Origin: Nitrospirales bacterium
GTDB lineage: Bacteria > Nitrospirota > Nitrospiria > Nitrospirales > UBA8639
Direction: 5' to 3'
NCBI GenBank assembly: GCA_021604005.1
Contig: BQIV01000017.1
Span: forward strand, 1 to 64,000
Length of the DNA stretch: 64,000 nt
The position numbers were made by a program, and so were the translations under genes. Shown here one piece after another: positions 35,549 through 42,816 of the stretch. The notes beneath the pieces were generated by a model. It worked only from the letters and a program-made list of their open reading frames with translations. It ran no database searches and was not told the DNA's origin. How positions within the stretch are numbered: the first letter of the stretch is position 1; each line of letters begins with the position of its first letter.

Positions 35549-36844
35549 ATGTCCCAAATGCCTGCTCCAAACTTCGGAAAAATTCTCTTAGTCGAACACA
35601 TGCCAGACAACCTGGACACTCTCCTTCAATGTTTTTCGGCTTTTGGATTTGAACTGTTCGTGGCGCATGATGGCGAAACTGCCTTACAACAATGCAAATT
35701 ACTACAGCCTGATTTAATTCTCTTGGATGTCAATACACCTGGCATGAATGGATTCGAAGTCTGCCGGCGGCTCAAGGCGCAAGACATGATTCATGACATT
35801 CCCGTCATTTTCATGAAGTCTCCCAATGACCATGTTAGCCTCGTCAAAGGCTTTTCTGTCGGAGCCGTGGATTACGTCAATAAGCCTCTCCAATTAGAAG
35901 AAACATTCGCCAGAATGACCTCGCATTTAAAAGTACGCCACCTACAAATACAGCTCGAAGAGACGATTGTCACACTGCAACAAGAAATCCGTGAACGTCA
36001 ACGTGCAGAAGAAGCAGCTAGACTCGCGATGCAACAGACTCAACACGCCAATGAACGAATGCGGCAAGACTTGGCTGCCGCCGCACGTGTGCAACAAGCC
36101 TTACTGCCGGATGTCGCTCCAAACATCCCAGGAGCAACATTTGCCTGGACCTATCGTCCCTGTGCAGAGCTCGGAGGCGATTCATTAAACGTGTTCTCTC
36201 TCACTGATCATCAAGTCGGCATGTATGTGTTAGATGTAACGGGACATGGTGTACCAGCATCCTTGCTCTCCGTCACACTTAGCCGTGTCCTCATCCCGCG
36301 CAGTGATCCGTCTTGTTTATTTGTCGAGTCAAACACTAGGAATGGAATGCCCGTACTCACCGCACCCGCAGAAGTCGCGACGCGCCTCAATGAGATGTTT
36401 CCCATGAATAAAGGTGGACATCAATACTTCACCCTTGTCTATGGCATTCTCGACACACGGGACGGGACATTTCGATATGTCTGTGCTGGTCATCCACCAC
36501 CAATTGTATACCCGAAAGACCAAGTTCCGATCATCTGTGAAGCTCCTAGCCTGCCAATTGGACTCTTCGAAGACGAACACTATGAAGATTGCACGATTCA
36601 ACTTGAATCCGACTCTCGCCTCTATCTGTACTCTGACGGCGTCATTGAAGCAATGAATACTCAACGAGAAATATTTGGCCAAGCCCGATTAGCTGACGCG
36701 CTTCAACACACACGACACATCAATCTCCAAGCAAGCGTCGAGTCTATCGCCACGGCTTCATCCAACTGGACTCAGCAGGGTCACATGCACGATGACCTTT
36801 CGATCCTTGCGGTGGAACATCCTTCAGGATCACACGACACATGA
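35549..36844 (+). CDS. Response regulator with PP2C-type phosphatase (RsbU-like)
   Basis: Receiver domain (about 10-125), coiled coil (about 130-180, QQEIRERQRAEEAARLAMQQ) and a SpoIIE/RsbU phosphatase domain (about 185-425: AELGGDS, VLDVTGHGVPASLLSV, CAGHPPPI, LYLYSDGVIEA, HDDLSILAV). The phospho-acceptor is Asp in LLDVNTPGMNG and the late Lys in NKPLQ is kept, but the usual acidic pair DD near the N-terminus is EH (LLVEHMPDN). Such enzymes dephosphorylate STAS proteins in partner-switch systems. Its stop overlaps the start of the kinase gene by four bases. Confidence 0.9.
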   Translation: MSQMPAPNFGKILLVEHMPDNLDTLLQCFSAFGFELFVAHDGETALQQCKLLQPDLILLDVNTPGMNGFEVCRRLKAQDMIHDIPVIFMKSPNDHVSLVKGFSVGAVDYVNKPLQLEETFARMTSHLKVRHLQIQLEETIVTLQQEIRERQRAEEAARLAMQQTQHANERMRQDLAAAARVQQALLPDVAPNIPGATFAWTYRPCAELGGDSLNVFSLTDHQVGMYVLDVTGHGVPASLLSVTLSRVLIPRSDPSCLFVESNTRNGMPVLTAPAEVATRLNEMFPMNKGGHQYFTLVYGILDTRDGTFRYVCAGHPPPIVYPKDQVPIICEAPSLPIGLFEDEHYEDCTIQLESDSRLYLYSDGVIEAMNTQREIFGQARLADALQHTRHINLQASVESIATASSNWTQQGHMHDDLSILAVEHPSGSHDT

Positions 36845-37278
36845 ACCATTTCGATACGCCCACGTCTGATCATGACGCACTCGTCCATCGATTTCCGGCT
36901 CGGGCAAAGAACCTCAAAGACACACGGACCAAGGTGAGAGCAACACTGACGCAATTGGGATACTGTCCCGACACGATTGAGCAGGTCGTGATCGCCATTG
37001 ATGAAGCCTGTCAAAACATTATTCGACATGCGTACGGACAGGAAACCGAAGAAGCAATCGTCTTGCGTATACAATACCAGCAACATGACTTACATATTAC
37101 TTTGCGAGACTATGCCCCGCCGGTTGACGCAGATTGCATAAAACTCCGTGATCTACGAGACATTCGTCCAGGAGGGCTCGGAGGACATTTTATGCATCAC
37201 ATTATGGATGAGATTTCGGTGGAATGTGCACCTGAGGGAAACGGCAATATTCTTCAGATGCATAAGCGATTTGCATAA
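36841..37278 (+). CDS. RsbW-like serine kinase / anti-sigma factor
   Basis: A GHKL-type ATP-binding domain of 145 residues: VVIAIDEACQNIIRHAYG (N box, with Glu and Asn), LRDYAPPVDAD (G1 box) and PGGLGGHFMHHIMDEI (G2 box). In partner switching such proteins phosphorylate a STAS antagonist and bind a sigma factor. Start overlaps the phosphatase stop (ATGA). The STAS gene follows after 30 bases. No sigma factor gene is nearby. Confidence 0.88.
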   Translation: MNHFDTPTSDHDALVHRFPARAKNLKDTRTKVRATLTQLGYCPDTIEQVVIAIDEACQNIIRHAYGQETEEAIVLRIQYQQHDLHITLRDYAPPVDADCIKLRDLRDIRPGGLGGHFMHHIMDEISVECAPEGNGNILQMHKRFA

Positions 37279-37308
37279 TTTACACGCATCTGGAAAAAGA
37301 GGAATGCT

Positions 37309-37641
37309 ATGGAACATTCTGTACACGTACAACCGAATGGTCACATTGTGTCTTTCAGTGGTGAAATTGACCTTGAGAATTCACCCGCAGCACGCACACG
37401 ACTTTTAGAGGTCGTCGAGTACGCGACAACAGTTTTTGTCGACCTGACCGCCGTGACCTACATGGACAGCTCAGGTATTGCCAGTCTCGTGGAAGCCTAT
37501 CAACGGGCGAAGAAAACCAATGTCGCATTCGTACTCATTTCAACAAGCCCTGCCGTCTTACGTGTGTTGCAAATGGCACGCCTCGACAAGGTCTTTACGA
37601 TTCATGAAACTTTGGAACATGCACAACATGCCAAGCACTAA
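37309..37641 (+). CDS. STAS-domain protein (anti-anti-sigma or MlaB-like)
   Basis: A single STAS domain of 110 residues: VSFSGEIDLENSPAARTRL and VDLTAVTYMDSSGIASLVEA, with the phosphorylatable Ser in MDSSGI. It could be the antagonist dephosphorylated by the RsbU-like protein. However, its 3' end overlaps the mlaE start by 14 bases, and in Mla transporters the subunit MlaB is itself a STAS protein. Both roles are open; the overlap makes the MlaB role at least as likely. Confidence 0.88.
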   Translation: MEHSVHVQPNGHIVSFSGEIDLENSPAARTRLLEVVEYATTVFVDLTAVTYMDSSGIASLVEAYQRAKKTNVAFVLISTSPAVLRVLQMARLDKVFTIHETLEHAQHAKH

Positions 37642-38446
37642 CCTTCCATCACATCCAGTCATTCGAAAAGTCGAAGCCTTAGGACAGCGGACGATTCAGG
37701 TGATTGATGCAATTGGTTTTGGCGCATCGCTTTTGTATCAAACCGGCTACTGGCTCCTGCTTGGCCGTCGATATCATCAAGTCGTTCGCCTGGCACCAAT
37801 TGTCGAGCAGATGATGGAAATCGGGATTCGAGCTATTCCAATTATTGTCCTTGTCTCCCTAACCATCGGGTTGATGTTGGCCATTCAAGGCGTGCATGCC
37901 CTCAAAACGTTTGGAGCAGAACAGCAAGTGACGTATGGCGTCGCACTCTCAGTTGTTAGAGAATTTTCCCCACTCATGACGGGAATTTTAGTGGCCGGGC
38001 GTTCGGGGGCGGCATTAGCTGCGCGCCTGAGTACGATGACCATTCACAGCGAAGTGGACGCCTTACGAGTCATGGGAATCAATCCAGTTCGTTTCTTAGT
38101 GGTTCCAAATTTGATCGCCATGCTGATCATGCTTCCGGCTTTGACTTGGTTATCGGATCTCATCGCCCTCACCGGAGCGGGGCTGTATATCACGACAGAC
38201 CTTGAAATTTCATTCAGCCGATACCTTCAACAAACGATGTACATATTACGCATAGATGATGTGCTCCATGGGGTAAGCAAAAGCGTTGTGTTCGGCGCCC
38301 TTATTACCCTCGTCGGAGTCATGAATGGAACATCGGTGACCGGAGGCGCAGAAGGTGTCGGACGCGTAACAACACATTCCGTTGTGCATTCAATCCTGGC
38401 GATTATCCTGGCGGACTTACTCATTGTCTTCATACTGACAAGATAG
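37628..38446 (+). CDS. mlaE: MlaE-family ABC permease
   Basis: Inner-membrane permease of the phospholipid/Mce transport family, 272 residues with five to six helices. VVREFSPLMTGILVAGRSGAALAA-type stretch (residues about 112-135), SEVDALRVMGINPVRFLVVP and the long hydrophobic C-terminal helices are diagnostic. The start at 37628 lies inside the STAS gene; the upstream part of the open frame is a shadow of that gene. With mlaF and mlaD it forms a transporter moving lipids between membranes. Confidence 0.93.
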   Translation: MPSTNLPSHPVIRKVEALGQRTIQVIDAIGFGASLLYQTGYWLLLGRRYHQVVRLAPIVEQMMEIGIRAIPIIVLVSLTIGLMLAIQGVHALKTFGAEQQVTYGVALSVVREFSPLMTGILVAGRSGAALAARLSTMTIHSEVDALRVMGINPVRFLVVPNLIAMLIMLPALTWLSDLIALTGAGLYITTDLEISFSRYLQQTMYILRIDDVLHGVSKSVVFGALITLVGVMNGTSVTGGAEGVGRVTTHSVVHSILAIILADLLIVFILTR

Positions 38447-38475
38447 TGAGAACGATGACGACTGAGGTGAGAAAT

Positions 38476-39267
38476 ATGATACCGGTGATCGAAGTGAAAG
38501 ACGTCGTGACGCATTATGGGTCTCGCAAAATTCTCAATCACGTGAATGTCGATATTCAGCCTGGGGAAATCATGGTCGTGATGGGAGGGAGCGGTTCAGG
38601 GAAAAGCACGTTATTACGGCATCTTATTGGATTAGAACGCGTGAGCGCAGGAAGCATTCGGCTTCTTGATCAAGACATCGGACACATGAGTCATCATGAA
38701 CTCACACGGTTTTACCGAAAATTGGGTGTGGCCTTTCAAGGAGGAGCCCTCTTCAGTTCAATGACAGTCGGAGAAAATATCATGCTTCCGCTTCGTGAAC
38801 ACACCAATCTGGACGAAAAGACCATGGCCATCATGGTACGCATGAAATTAGAAGTCGTCAATCTTGCAGGATTCGAACATCTCATGCCATCTGAGTTATC
38901 TGGCGGCATGCTCAAACGTGCTGCCTTCGCGAGAGCCGTCATCATGGACCCGGCATTACTGTTTTGCGATGAACCCTCAGCTGGTCTCGACCCTGTCGTC
39001 TCTTCATCATTAGATGAACTCATCCTGCAACTCCGTGACGCGCTCAACATGACGATTGTCGTCGTCACGCATGAGCTCGACAGTGCATTTCGAATTGCCG
39101 ACCGGATTACCGTCCTCGATAAAGGCGAAGTCCTCACCATCGGATCAGTTGATCAAGTGCGGGCATCCACACATACACGAATTCAAGATCTACTCAATCG
39201 GCGTTTTGAAGAAACAATACTCGATCCCGATGAATATCTGGCTCGGCTCACAGGGGAATCCATCTAA
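38476..39267 (+). CDS. mlaF: MlaF-type ABC ATPase
   Basis: ATPase partner of MlaE. Walker A GGSGSGKSTLLRHL, signature ELSGGMLKRAAFARA, Walker B LLFCDEPSAGLDPV and the VTHELDSAF switch His. Length 263. The frame begins at a GTG at 38446 overlapping the mlaE stop; other ATGs are at 38455 and 38476. GAGG at 38464-38467 favours 38476. MlaD follows after 17 bases. Confidence 0.93.
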   Translation: MIPVIEVKDVVTHYGSRKILNHVNVDIQPGEIMVVMGGSGSGKSTLLRHLIGLERVSAGSIRLLDQDIGHMSHHELTRFYRKLGVAFQGGALFSSMTVGENIMLPLREHTNLDEKTMAIMVRMKLEVVNLAGFEHLMPSELSGGMLKRAAFARAVIMDPALLFCDEPSAGLDPVVSSSLDELILQLRDALNMTIVVVTHELDSAFRIADRITVLDKGEVLTIGSVDQVRASTHTRIQDLLNRRFEETILDPDEYLARLTGESI

Positions 39268-39284
39268 AAACCTCGGGACAACCT

Positions 39285-40229
39285 ATGCGTGATTCTCGAA
39301 CAAACTACCTCATCGTCGGCACCGTGCTGTTAACGTTGCTCGGGACATTAGTGGTGTGGCTGGGCATGCTGTCTGGAATAGCTCAACCAACCAACCACTA
39401 CTATCTAGAATTTGAGAATGTGATGGGTCTGACCGAAGGCGCGCAGATCCTCTATGAAGGCTATCCAATTGGGAGGATTGAAACGATTCAATTCACTCGG
39501 CGACCGGATCTTTCGGCATATCGCTTAGGCATTACCGTTCGCGAGGACTGGAATATTCCAAAGGATAGTCTCGCCGTCATCACCCAAGCTGGTTTTCTTT
39601 CTGCCATGGTCATTGATATACAGAATGGCCATTCGACCGAAATACTGAAACCCGGAGATCAAATTCCCAGTCAAGGGGCCACGAATATCCTCACCACGAT
39701 GACCACGGTTGCGCATCAACTTGGAGAGCTGGCCAACACCAGCCTCAAGCCCTTACTCGACAATCTCACAGACGGAACCGACTCACTGGAAGCGCTGGCC
39801 CACGATGCTCCAATTATTCTGGGCAATCTCAAAATTTTCACAGCCCAGTTGAATGACACCACCAGTCAACTGAATACACTCATCAAGCAAAGTGGAGGTC
39901 ATGTCGACACAATTCTCAGCGATGTCGAGTCCGCATCCGGTGATGTCTCAGATCTCACCGCCGATTTTCGCAAAACCTCAAAACGTGTGGACCGGCTTGT
40001 CTATTCGATGAATGCGCTTTTGGCAAAAAATCAGCAAAATATCGACCAGTCTATCAGCGACCTCCATCACACATTGGAGGTCATGGCGAGTCATGTGCAA
40101 GAAGTCAGCTATAACCTGGAAACCACAACACGAAACCTGAACGAATTCACTTCCGAGCTGAGACGAAATCCAGGGGTCATTATTCGGGGCAAGAAATTTC
40201 GAGACGATCACGCCCTTGTGCACGATTAA
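39285..40229 (+). CDS. mlaD: MlaD-family MCE-domain protein
   Basis: N-terminal membrane helix (LIVGTVLLTLLGTLVVWLGM), an MCE domain (about 40-120: EFENVMGLTEGAQILYEGYP), then a long helical tail (about 140-300) rich in coiled-coil positions such as DTTSQLNTLIKQSGGHVDTI. MCE proteins make rings that carry lipids across the periplasm; the long tail resembles proteins that reach further than E. coli MlaD. Same operon as mlaE and mlaF. Confidence 0.92.
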   Translation: MRDSRTNYLIVGTVLLTLLGTLVVWLGMLSGIAQPTNHYYLEFENVMGLTEGAQILYEGYPIGRIETIQFTRRPDLSAYRLGITVREDWNIPKDSLAVITQAGFLSAMVIDIQNGHSTEILKPGDQIPSQGATNILTTMTTVAHQLGELANTSLKPLLDNLTDGTDSLEALAHDAPIILGNLKIFTAQLNDTTSQLNTLIKQSGGHVDTILSDVESASGDVSDLTADFRKTSKRVDRLVYSMNALLAKNQQNIDQSISDLHHTLEVMASHVQEVSYNLETTTRNLNEFTSELRRNPGVIIRGKKFRDDHALVHD

Positions 40230-40335
40230 TTTGTAAGTCAAAGAAAATGGCACACATGATAGGCTCCGTAGCAAAATTGAGTCTGTTTCACCGATAGCGA
40301 TACAACGTCACTTCATCGTCGATGAGTAGGGAATC

Positions 40336-40977
40336 ATGATGATACGCATGGTCACACAATACATTTCGCCACTCATATTCAGTACAGCATTGCTGTTAGA
40401 AGGATGTCTCGGTGGACCAGCTCCACAAGATCACTTTTATCGTTTAGAACTCCCAACACCGCAATCATCATTCACCTCTCCTCTGTTACAAGGCACACTC
40501 CAAATCACTCGACCCTGGGCGGATGCCCTCACCAGGGAACGGCAACTGCTCTACCGTACGACGACGAGAACAGCCCAAGTCCAGCGTCATACCTATCATC
40601 ATTGGATCGACTCACCAACATTGATCGTCCAACAACAAATCGCCCAGTACCTACGTCATTCAGGTATGGCAACACAGGTTGTCACGCCCGACTTACGCGT
40701 CAACGCAGACTACCGACTTTCATGCCACATGACAAAACTCGAACGCATTGTCGATGACCCACCACGCGTCATCATGGAAATGGAGCTGGGATTGTCGCAC
40801 ATACGAGAACGTGAAGTAGTTCTGCTGCGCACGTATCATGTCGAAGAACCCGCACATGGGTATAACATTACTGCCACGATTGAAGCCTATAATCATGCAC
40901 TCACAAATATTCTTGATCAATTTCTCGCTGATACCTCGTCCATACCGATGGCCAGACGGGTAACGCACCAGCCCTAA
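40336..40977 (+). CDS. PqiC/ABC-transport auxiliary lipoprotein
   Basis: Lipoprotein of 213 residues with lipobox LLLEGC (Cys near residue 24). HFYRLELPTP is the typical start of the ABC_trans_aux (PqiC-like) domain; LQITRPWADALTRERQLLY and RVNADYRLSCHM follow. It sits in the outer membrane and contacts MCE tubes. It lies 106 bases after mlaD on the same strand, so it likely completes the transport operon. Confidence 0.85.
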   Translation: MMIRMVTQYISPLIFSTALLLEGCLGGPAPQDHFYRLELPTPQSSFTSPLLQGTLQITRPWADALTRERQLLYRTTTRTAQVQRHTYHHWIDSPTLIVQQQIAQYLRHSGMATQVVTPDLRVNADYRLSCHMTKLERIVDDPPRVIMEMELGLSHIREREVVLLRTYHVEEPAHGYNITATIEAYNHALTNILDQFLADTSSIPMARRVTHQP

Positions 40978-41141: not shown

Positions 41142-42092
41142 ATGCAGCTCGAACAAGCCTTGACCACACGCATCCTGCTAAAAGAACACCATCCCCTTCA
41201 TAGAGCGGTTTTCTATGGGAAACTGTTCATTGGGATAGGACTGGTCTTCGTCATCTTGAGTCTCTCCGTTCTTTTCATTGGCATGAGATGGATGGAGGAC
41301 TCACTATTTCCAGTCCATATCCCGCTCTGGGTGATTGGAGTTCTGTGCGGAACGGGTGTAGGCGGAGGTGTCTGGCTTATCGTATCTGGATTACGGGACG
41401 TACAACGTATTTGGAATAGAAATCATGGGCAACAGCAATTCCCCTCAAGTCCTTGGCTCTGGGACTATCCTTGGCAAGCGTGGGGTGTCACTGACAATTT
41501 CTTGAAGAGTGCCCTTCGAAGTCTCGTCGCACTGATCTTGTTCAGCCTGTTTCTTTCACCGTTTCATTGGATTGCCTTTGCCTGGGAAGAACGTTCATTC
41601 TTTTGGCAGGGTATCGTAGGTCTGCTCGACCTCGTGATCATCTTGAGTGTAGGCGACCGATTCGTGATGAAACTCAAACAATACCTCAGATATGGCAATA
41701 GCCAACTCGAATTTCACGATTTCCCATTTTTCCTGGGAAACCCACTGTCCCTGACGCTCAAAAATGTCCCCTCGACTATTTCAACGCTTCACCTCACGCT
41801 GCGATGTATTGAAGAAGCCTATTTATCAGATAACACAAGTCAAAATACACAGTCGGTCGTCGTCTGCTATCAGATTTACCAAGACAGCCAAATGATCGAA
41901 CAGGGAGATGTGCATGCCGGAGCTGACCTTGACCTGCTCTGGATGCTTCCGGAAGACCCCACCCTCTCCTCGACACCCAGCGAACGGCCGGCGACCTATT
42001 GGGAACTGGAAGTCACAGCCGAACAACAGGACGTGAACTATCAGAGCCGCTTTCTTTTACCCATCTATGCTGAACCTGTTGAGTTCACATAA
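41142..42092 (+). CDS. Membrane hypothetical protein (316 aa)
   Basis: Four predicted helices in the first 175 residues, in two pairs (about 22-45 and 58-82; 125-148 and 155-172), then a beta-rich soluble part to the end with VVVCYQIYQDSQMIEQG and YWELEVTAEQQDVNYQSRF. The overall look is like DUF3592-type proteins, though I cannot confirm this. No operon partner; it follows the Mla operon by 165 bases on the same strand. Confidence 0.7.
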   Translation: MQLEQALTTRILLKEHHPLHRAVFYGKLFIGIGLVFVILSLSVLFIGMRWMEDSLFPVHIPLWVIGVLCGTGVGGGVWLIVSGLRDVQRIWNRNHGQQQFPSSPWLWDYPWQAWGVTDNFLKSALRSLVALILFSLFLSPFHWIAFAWEERSFFWQGIVGLLDLVIILSVGDRFVMKLKQYLRYGNSQLEFHDFPFFLGNPLSLTLKNVPSTISTLHLTLRCIEEAYLSDNTSQNTQSVVVCYQIYQDSQMIEQGDVHAGADLDLLWMLPEDPTLSSTPSERPATYWELEVTAEQQDVNYQSRFLLPIYAEPVEFT

Positions 42093-42300
42093 CGTGAATA
42101 GGCTTAATAAATAAGGCAGCAAACACAGTGAGAAATCGTCCTCTTGCAAATGACCAGTCAGAGTGGTATCGGTATCATACGCGGTGAAAAAGATTTAAAG
42201 TCTGATCGAAACGAAATACACACCTGCTCATGAACGAAACAGAAAAAAGCCGTAGGTGGAAAGACCATCAGATAACATCAAGTTCTCCCAACGTACATTC

Positions 42301-42816
42301 ATGACAACACAATCTTCTATGCCTCATAATCAAAGGTCAGTCGCGTTCATCTGTTATTGGCTTCCGCTATTCGTCTATGCCGGTACGGTTGCCTTCATCT
42401 CCTCATTATCGATGCCCAAAATGCATTTCGAAACATTTGCCCAGGACTATCTCTCAATTTCAGTTGGCTTCTTTACGAAAATGAACGATAAACTCGTTCA
42501 TCTCATTGAATATACAATACTCGGCTTACTGACCTATCGAGCCATTCGATTCTCCTGGGGAACGCAACTTGGGCCGTTGGCGGCGTGTCTCACCGTCTTC
42601 GTTGTCGCACTCTTCGGGTGCACCGATGAGTTTCATCAATGGTTTATCCCACTGCGCAGCACTGAAGTCCTTGATCTGATGGCAGACATTGTGGGAAGTG
42701 TGGTTGGCATAGCACTGTGGGAGTGGGGACGAACGCTACCAGCCATTCGATTGCTCGAAGAACAACTCCCTTGCAAACTCCAACTCATCAAAAGTTTTGC
42801 GGCCTCAAAGTTTTAA
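42301..42816 (+). CDS. VanZ-family membrane protein
   Basis: 171 residues with about four helices. DKLVHLIEYTILGLL and FGCTDEFHQWFIPLRSTEVLD, then DIVGSVVG, are the VanZ-like signature. Function is unclear in most members; some affect glycopeptide susceptibility or exopolysaccharide. The frame is open to 42256, but the ATG at 42301 precedes the first helix properly. Single gene. Confidence 0.87.
   Translation: MTTQSSMPHNQRSVAFICYWLPLFVYAGTVAFISSLSMPKMHFETFAQDYLSISVGFFTKMNDKLVHLIEYTILGLLTYRAIRFSWGTQLGPLAACLTVFVVALFGCTDEFHQWFIPLRSTEVLDLMADIVGSVVGIALWEWGRTLPAIRLLEEQLPCKLQLIKSFAASKF

Follow-up and report, generated by a model that had tools for sequence, protein, structure and literature searches.

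Within a 64,000-nucleotide stretch of a Nitrospirales bacterium genome (contig BQIV01000017.1 of assembly GCA_021604005.1, positions 1 to 64,000; hereafter, the window), seven genes were found to lie head-to-tail on the + strand at 35549-40977 and to encode, in order, a phosphatase, a kinase, a STAS protein, MlaE, MlaF, an MCE/MlaD protein and a PqiC-like lipoprotein (Table 1). An initial annotation of this DNA had described these genes as partner-switch regulators sharing one operon with a lipid transporter, and the gene content and order that it gave were borne out by the coordinates, the common strand and the Pfam matches. The two gene overlaps that it reported were also confirmed: (i) 4 bp (ATGA) are shared by the phosphatase and kinase genes; and (ii) mlaE starts inside the STAS gene with an overlap of 14 bp, an arrangement also detected in a related locus (L061). 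Neither a promoter-like site on the + strand nor a credible terminator, which the annotation had listed as evidence that would refute its reading, was seen at the STAS-mlaE junction by a weak consensus scan that performed no better than shuffles. With MlaE, an MlaF-type ATPase and an MCE protein encoded together, the transporter half has the MlaFED core as judged by Pfam. The MlaE domain spans residues 58-267 of the 272-residue permease, with the STAS domain encoded by a separate gene; the closest solved chains to the ATPase are MlaF proteins; and the MlaD protein combines a single MCE domain with a long helical C-terminal region, possibly a periplasmic needle. None of the operon genes is an mlaC, and the sole match to mlaC in the genome is on another contig (C13).

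Table 1. Features of the seven-gene operon in the window
Feature	Position	Strand	Length (aa)	Evidence
Receiver + coiled linker + SpoIIE/PP2C serine phosphatase	35549..36844	+	431	Pfam Response_reg 4e-21, SpoIIE 3e-43
RsbW/SpoIIAB-like serine kinase	36841..37278	+	145	Pfam HATPase_c_2 3e-24
STAS protein, SpoIIAA/RsbV-type sequence	37309..37641	+	110	Pfam STAS 2e-24, NCBIfam
Ser54 codon (first Ser of DSSG), predicted phospho-acceptor	37468..37470	+		Residue alignments
MlaE-type permease without fused STAS	37628..38446	+	272	Pfam MlaE 5e-68, tree
MlaF-type ATPase with C-terminal extension ...DPDEYLARLTGE	38446..39267	+		Pfam ABC_tran 3e-28
MlaD/MCE protein	39285..40229	+	314	Pfam MlaD 4e-14, NCBIfam MCE
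PqiC-like auxiliary lipoprotein	40336..40977	+	213	Pfam ABC_trans_aux 1e-13

The initial annotation had proposed a search for the same seven-gene order in other genomes. An alignment made up solely of MlaE was used to scan 84,980 species genomes; the 80 loci retained had identities of 50-82%, and the window proteins were then mapped onto these loci, 68 of which had enough flanking sequence. Since the loci were picked by MlaE only, the association with the remaining genes was not built into the selection. The complete order was found in 65 of these 68 loci, compared with a kinase or phosphatase near MlaE in none of 26 control MlaE loci, drawn from genomes that carry the operon and from genomes related to that of the window; the order is kept far more often than expected by chance. 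The three incomplete loci were L078 (runs of N), L093 and L098 (no lipoprotein match). At L093, from Magnetospirillum sp. UT-4, hydrogenase-maturation genes stand directly after mlaE (6779 onward), and mlaF, mlaD and the lipoprotein gene are not adjacent. The 80 loci belong to Nitrospirota, to a few Gammaproteobacteria and, for the most part, to Alphaproteobacteria, many of them Rhodospirillales, and cultured strains are among the carriers, such as Terasakiella pusilla, Dongia mobilis and Magnetospirillum. When one alphaproteobacterial order was sampled separately, the MlaE was detected by similarity in about two thirds of the genomes (97/150), and the loci fetched from that order encoded the kinase and STAS protein in 20 of 20 cases and all seven genes in 19 of 20. 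Among 299 sampled Pseudomonadota genomes, 6 had a match. Frequent in certain orders, the operon is rare overall. When the operon MlaE was compared with 60 relatives, identities of 67-82% were found in five genomes, with every other MlaE at most 40% identical; the nearest named relatives are Nitrospirales metagenome-assembled genomes (MAGs).

The control loci were of three types, those with (i) STAS fused to MlaE; (ii) an E. coli-type arrangement with a weakly matching MlaB-like STAS protein; and (iii) no STAS match. Two E. coli-type mla operons (L197 and L198) were among them, and their weak STAS match is their own MlaB-like protein. The initial annotation had considered that a second, dedicated mlaB in the genome, together with a conserved sigma factor partner for the STAS protein, would speak against its proposal. 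A second MlaE system is indeed encoded on contig C53 of the window genome (L003, 4106-5275 on the - strand, and neighbours), but there STAS and MlaE form one protein, and MlaF, MlaD and PqiC-like genes accompany it. A second group of Nitrospirota MlaE proteins, at 37-45% identity, was associated with the order phosphatase-kinase-STAS-MlaE in 15 of 20 loci, mostly with MlaF and MlaD, although MlaF, MlaD and the lipoprotein are sometimes non-adjacent. One genome consisting of a single contig (L234) has only the STAS-MlaE pair. In the MlaE tree the window clade and the second Nitrospirota group were recovered with values of 100 and 98, respectively, both starred, and a group of fused STAS-MlaE proteins was placed beside the window clade with weak support (84); this topology is compatible with either a single origin, followed by fusion and loss, or two separate ones. 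Operons from Nitrospirales (window and L074-L082) nest inside Pseudomonadota, a placement that is not starred, and their copies are patchy even within the genus, which together suggest acquisition by lateral transfer.

The residues expected of a working partner switch were found to be conserved throughout the set. The PP2C residues D211, D229, D363, D415 and D416 are kept in 75-77 of 77 phosphatase homologues, the remainder being gaps, and the kinase catalytic residues E55, N59, D90, G112 and G114 are present in 80 of 80. The phosphatase, which is predicted to dephosphorylate the STAS protein, forms a single fused protein with the kinase in 62 of the MlaE-selected loci and is separate in 14. 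Its input domain is a receiver in the window clade (window and L077) and a GAF domain in the alpha- and gammaproteobacterial members checked; as the input domain varies between groups with the rest constant, this pattern fits a signaling module with a swappable input. The window kinase is the sole strong stand-alone HATPase_c_2 match in its genome, and no relative of it turned up on viral contigs. At one locus (L257) the kinase, STAS and transporter genes are intact and no phosphatase open frame was detected 5′ of the kinase, possibly due to loss by decay or frameshift. The missing phosphatase of another locus (G013/L061) was not counted as evidence, as runs of N flank that locus. Within the STAS protein, D53-S54-S55-G56 was found to be invariant (81/81), in agreement with the earlier remark that the phosphorylatable serine of MDSSGI is kept, and the assignment could be refined to the first serine: Ser54 is the expected phospho-acceptor, because its aligned counterpart is Ser in SpoIIAA 1th8, Ala in 1tid and, by profile alignment, Thr52 in E. 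coli MlaB. The STAS proteins of the second Nitrospirota group also keep DSSG, with the exception of L230 (DSSA). At locus L261 the motif reads YIDSSG. None of the STAS domains examined that lack a kinase has DSSG; their motif takes D[TSV]x forms.

The relationship of the STAS protein to the transporter was examined through its fold and through the C-terminus of MlaF. An AlphaFold2 model of the STAS protein (mean confidence score, pLDDT, of 95) matched RsbV (Z 17.7, root mean square deviation 1.4), SpoIIAA (Z 17.2) and the P. aeruginosa MlaB of the MlaFEBD complex (Z 13.2, root mean square deviation 1.8 over 95 residues). In E. coli, MlaF touches MlaB through a C-terminal extension (Y261, L265 and L266), retention of MlaF on the complex requires MlaB, and MlaB Thr52 lies near the center of the MlaF interface, where the phosphomimetic T52E weakens binding (PMC7367683). 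The window MlaF ends in DPDEYLARLTGESI, and this Y-x3-L tail was found in 77 of 77 full-length MlaF proteins of the clade, including five that were missed by the strict pattern but visibly carry it. Tails similar to Y-x3-L are present in MlaF proteins of the sister group and of E. coli-type systems with a free MlaB, whereas systems with a STAS-MlaE fusion or with no STAS lack the tail. A fusion of this kind is known from Brucella MpcE, in which the STAS domain is part of the permease (PMC12436622). The position of the gene, the fold, the MlaF tail and the STAS-MlaE fusions of related transporters thus support the free STAS protein as an MlaB-like subunit. In addition, STAS distances after partialling correlated with those of the kinase, PP2C, MlaE and MlaF, and hardly with those of MlaD or the lipoprotein; this is weak evidence that also includes an odd value of -0.5 for PP2C versus MlaF, and we give it little weight. 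There is strong support for a kinase/phosphatase/STAS module dedicated to this transporter, because the gene order is kept in two phyla, the MlaE phylogeny agrees, the module is absent at other MlaE genes and the catalytic and acceptor residues are invariant.

The explanation that we consider probable is that the operon works as one unit in which phosphorylation of Ser54 controls the docking of an MlaB-like STAS subunit on MlaF and thereby switches transport. The seven genes would encode an inner-membrane MCE lipid transporter (MlaE, MlaF, MlaD and the PqiC-like outer-membrane lipoprotein) together with a phosphorylation switch of its own. Unphosphorylated STAS would sit on MlaF, gripped by the MlaF C-terminal extension, and keep the ATPase both assembled and working. 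Ser54, which lies in the expected STAS-MlaF interface, would be phosphorylated by the RsbW-like kinase; phosphorylated STAS would depart from MlaF, and transport would halt. Driven by its own input domain (receiver or GAF), the PP2C phosphatase would strip the phosphate, and transport would resume. The initial annotation had proposed that lipid transport is switched through phosphorylation of the STAS subunit; the present analysis strengthened this proposal as regards the dedication of the module and the MlaB-like nature of the STAS protein, while the modification of Ser54, the binding of STAS to MlaF and the on/off sense of the switch are steps that we infer.

Several observations do not sit easily with this explanation. 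The STAS sequence is nearer to SpoIIAA/RsbV than to MlaB, and in the NCBIfam comparison it scored 21.4 bits against the mlaB equivalog (cut-off 90) and above the cut-off of the superfamily model ant_ant_sig. The AlphaFold2 model keeps a C-terminal helix, and most other STAS domains have a longer C-terminus than MlaB (PMC7367683). Three loci (L220, L221 and L233) encode phosphatase-kinase-STAS-MlaE without adjacent MlaF or MlaD, and L207 has transporter genes without an adjacent STAS or kinase gene. Furthermore, E. coli MlaB T52A still bound MlaF yet was non-functional (PMC7367683), so the acceptor residue may matter for reasons besides phosphorylation.

Other readings of the operon were weighed against STAS docking. 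Unlikely, in our view, is that the kinase is itself the effector, binding and inhibiting MlaF or the cytoplasmic face of MlaE until unphosphorylated STAS draws it off, in which case STAS would not be a transporter subunit. RsbW-type kinases are described as acting in this manner on sigma factors (PMC3999984), the STAS protein is RsbV-like in sequence and fold, and the operon evidence is the same as for STAS docking; however, this reading would leave unexplained why MlaF has an MlaB-type extension and lacks it when STAS is fused or missing, why the STAS and mlaE genes lie so close together and why related systems have STAS-MlaE fusions. A control of transcription, with the switch acting on a sigma factor or another regulator of transcription encoded elsewhere, and merely being co-transcribed with the transporter, would correspond to the best-known role of such modules, and the window genome encodes several sigma-70-family proteins and 13 other STAS matches. 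The initial annotation had named a conserved sigma factor partner as part of the evidence that would speak against its proposal, and none was detected: the flanks of the 80 loci had no conserved sigma gene (families judged from one example each), no flanking gene was common to more than 16 of the 80 loci, and the shared families were not sigma factors. Likewise, no SigBFG match was above the cut-off in 15 carrier genomes, versus 1 of 14 control genomes that passed. The FliA-type sigma factor of the window genome adjoins its own response regulator (RR)-SpoIIE phosphatase and RR-HATPase_c_2 protein on contig C2 (L071, ~126-133 kb), together with an FlhG/FleN-like gene and a nearby STAS match, and this region appears to be a flagellar partner-switch cluster in its own right. 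The inheritance of the module with one MlaE lineage in two phyla would, moreover, need some other reason, and action on a sigma factor or other regulator is considered improbable.

Information could also flow in reverse, with the transporter as the sensor: the state of transport would alter the exposure of STAS to the kinase and phosphatase, and phosphorylated STAS would report envelope lipid status to some target. The same operon data speak for this arrangement, and some STAS proteins are outputs on unknown targets (PMC8256260). Yet the phosphatase has its own input domain (receiver or GAF), which suggests that the signal enters through the phosphatase, and the flanks of the 80 loci revealed no additional conserved partner gene; we regard reverse flow as very improbable.

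When compared with known systems, the operon resembles E. coli MlaFEDB in its MlaE permease, MlaF with Y-x3-L extension, MCE protein MlaD and separate small STAS protein. It differs in that the STAS protein is of the SpoIIAA/RsbV type and has both DSSG and a C-terminal helix, genes for a kinase and phosphatase are included (none lies between the E. coli mla genes), the MlaD protein is longer (314 versus 183 residues), a PqiC-like lipoprotein is present, and mlaC and mlaA are elsewhere in the genome. The transporter half most resembles Mpc-type systems: Brucella MpcEFDA, a Mla-Pqi chimera, likewise combines MlaE/F homologues, a long MCE protein and a PqiC-like lipoprotein in one operon; the difference lies in the STAS domain, which there is on the permease rather than free and kinase-linked (PMC12436622). 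The second MlaE system of the window genome has this Brucella Mpc layout, and the Mpc-like fused systems examined have no kinase or phosphatase nearby and an MlaF without the extension. The regulatory half is like the Bacillus SpoIIAA-SpoIIAB-SpoIIE and RsbV-RsbW-RsbU sets in its PP2C, HATPase_c_2 and STAS proteins, invariant catalytic residues and DSSG; unlike these, it has a lipid ABC transporter instead of a sigma factor in the operon, and its phosphatase and kinase are usually one fused protein. Kinase/STAS modules with no cognate sigma factor identified include V. fischeri SypE-SypA, R. capsulatus RbaVWY and Bordetella Btr, and the available text of the sources does not describe these as within a lipid ABC transporter operon (PMC8256260, PMC3999984).

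Both halves of the operon are thus of known kinds, and neither a description of this operon nor of the union of a transporter and a partner switch in one conserved operon was found in the open-access literature. We think it fairly likely that these loci represent a class of MCE lipid transporter that is widespread and had not been described before, in which an operon-encoded kinase-phosphatase pair reversibly phosphorylates the STAS subunit and the partner switch acts directly on the ATPase of an ABC transporter and not on transcription. If so, partner switching would act on membrane lipid transport, and the arrangement would suggest an origin for the STAS subunits found in Mla and Mpc transporters. 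Phosphoregulation of MlaB was proposed for E. coli by a 2020 structural study of MlaFB, which noted no experimental evidence for it (PMC7367683). As a kinase, a phosphatase and a STAS protein with the canonical serine are encoded here beside the transporter, the question becomes directly testable.

Additional observations were made at individual loci. The transporter genes of L207 (88-3223) are in the clade-type order MlaE-MlaF-MlaD-lipoprotein and are preceded by ggt and mutY-like genes; STAS matches lie elsewhere in that genome. The STAS protein of an operon in a MAG labelled Stygiobacter (L144) is nearest to Magnetospirillum sequences, and this operon is possibly contamination. In the window, the operon is followed at 41142-42816 by genes for a 316-residue protein without a Pfam match and a VanZ-like protein, a pair that was found after the operon only in the two genomes of the same genus.

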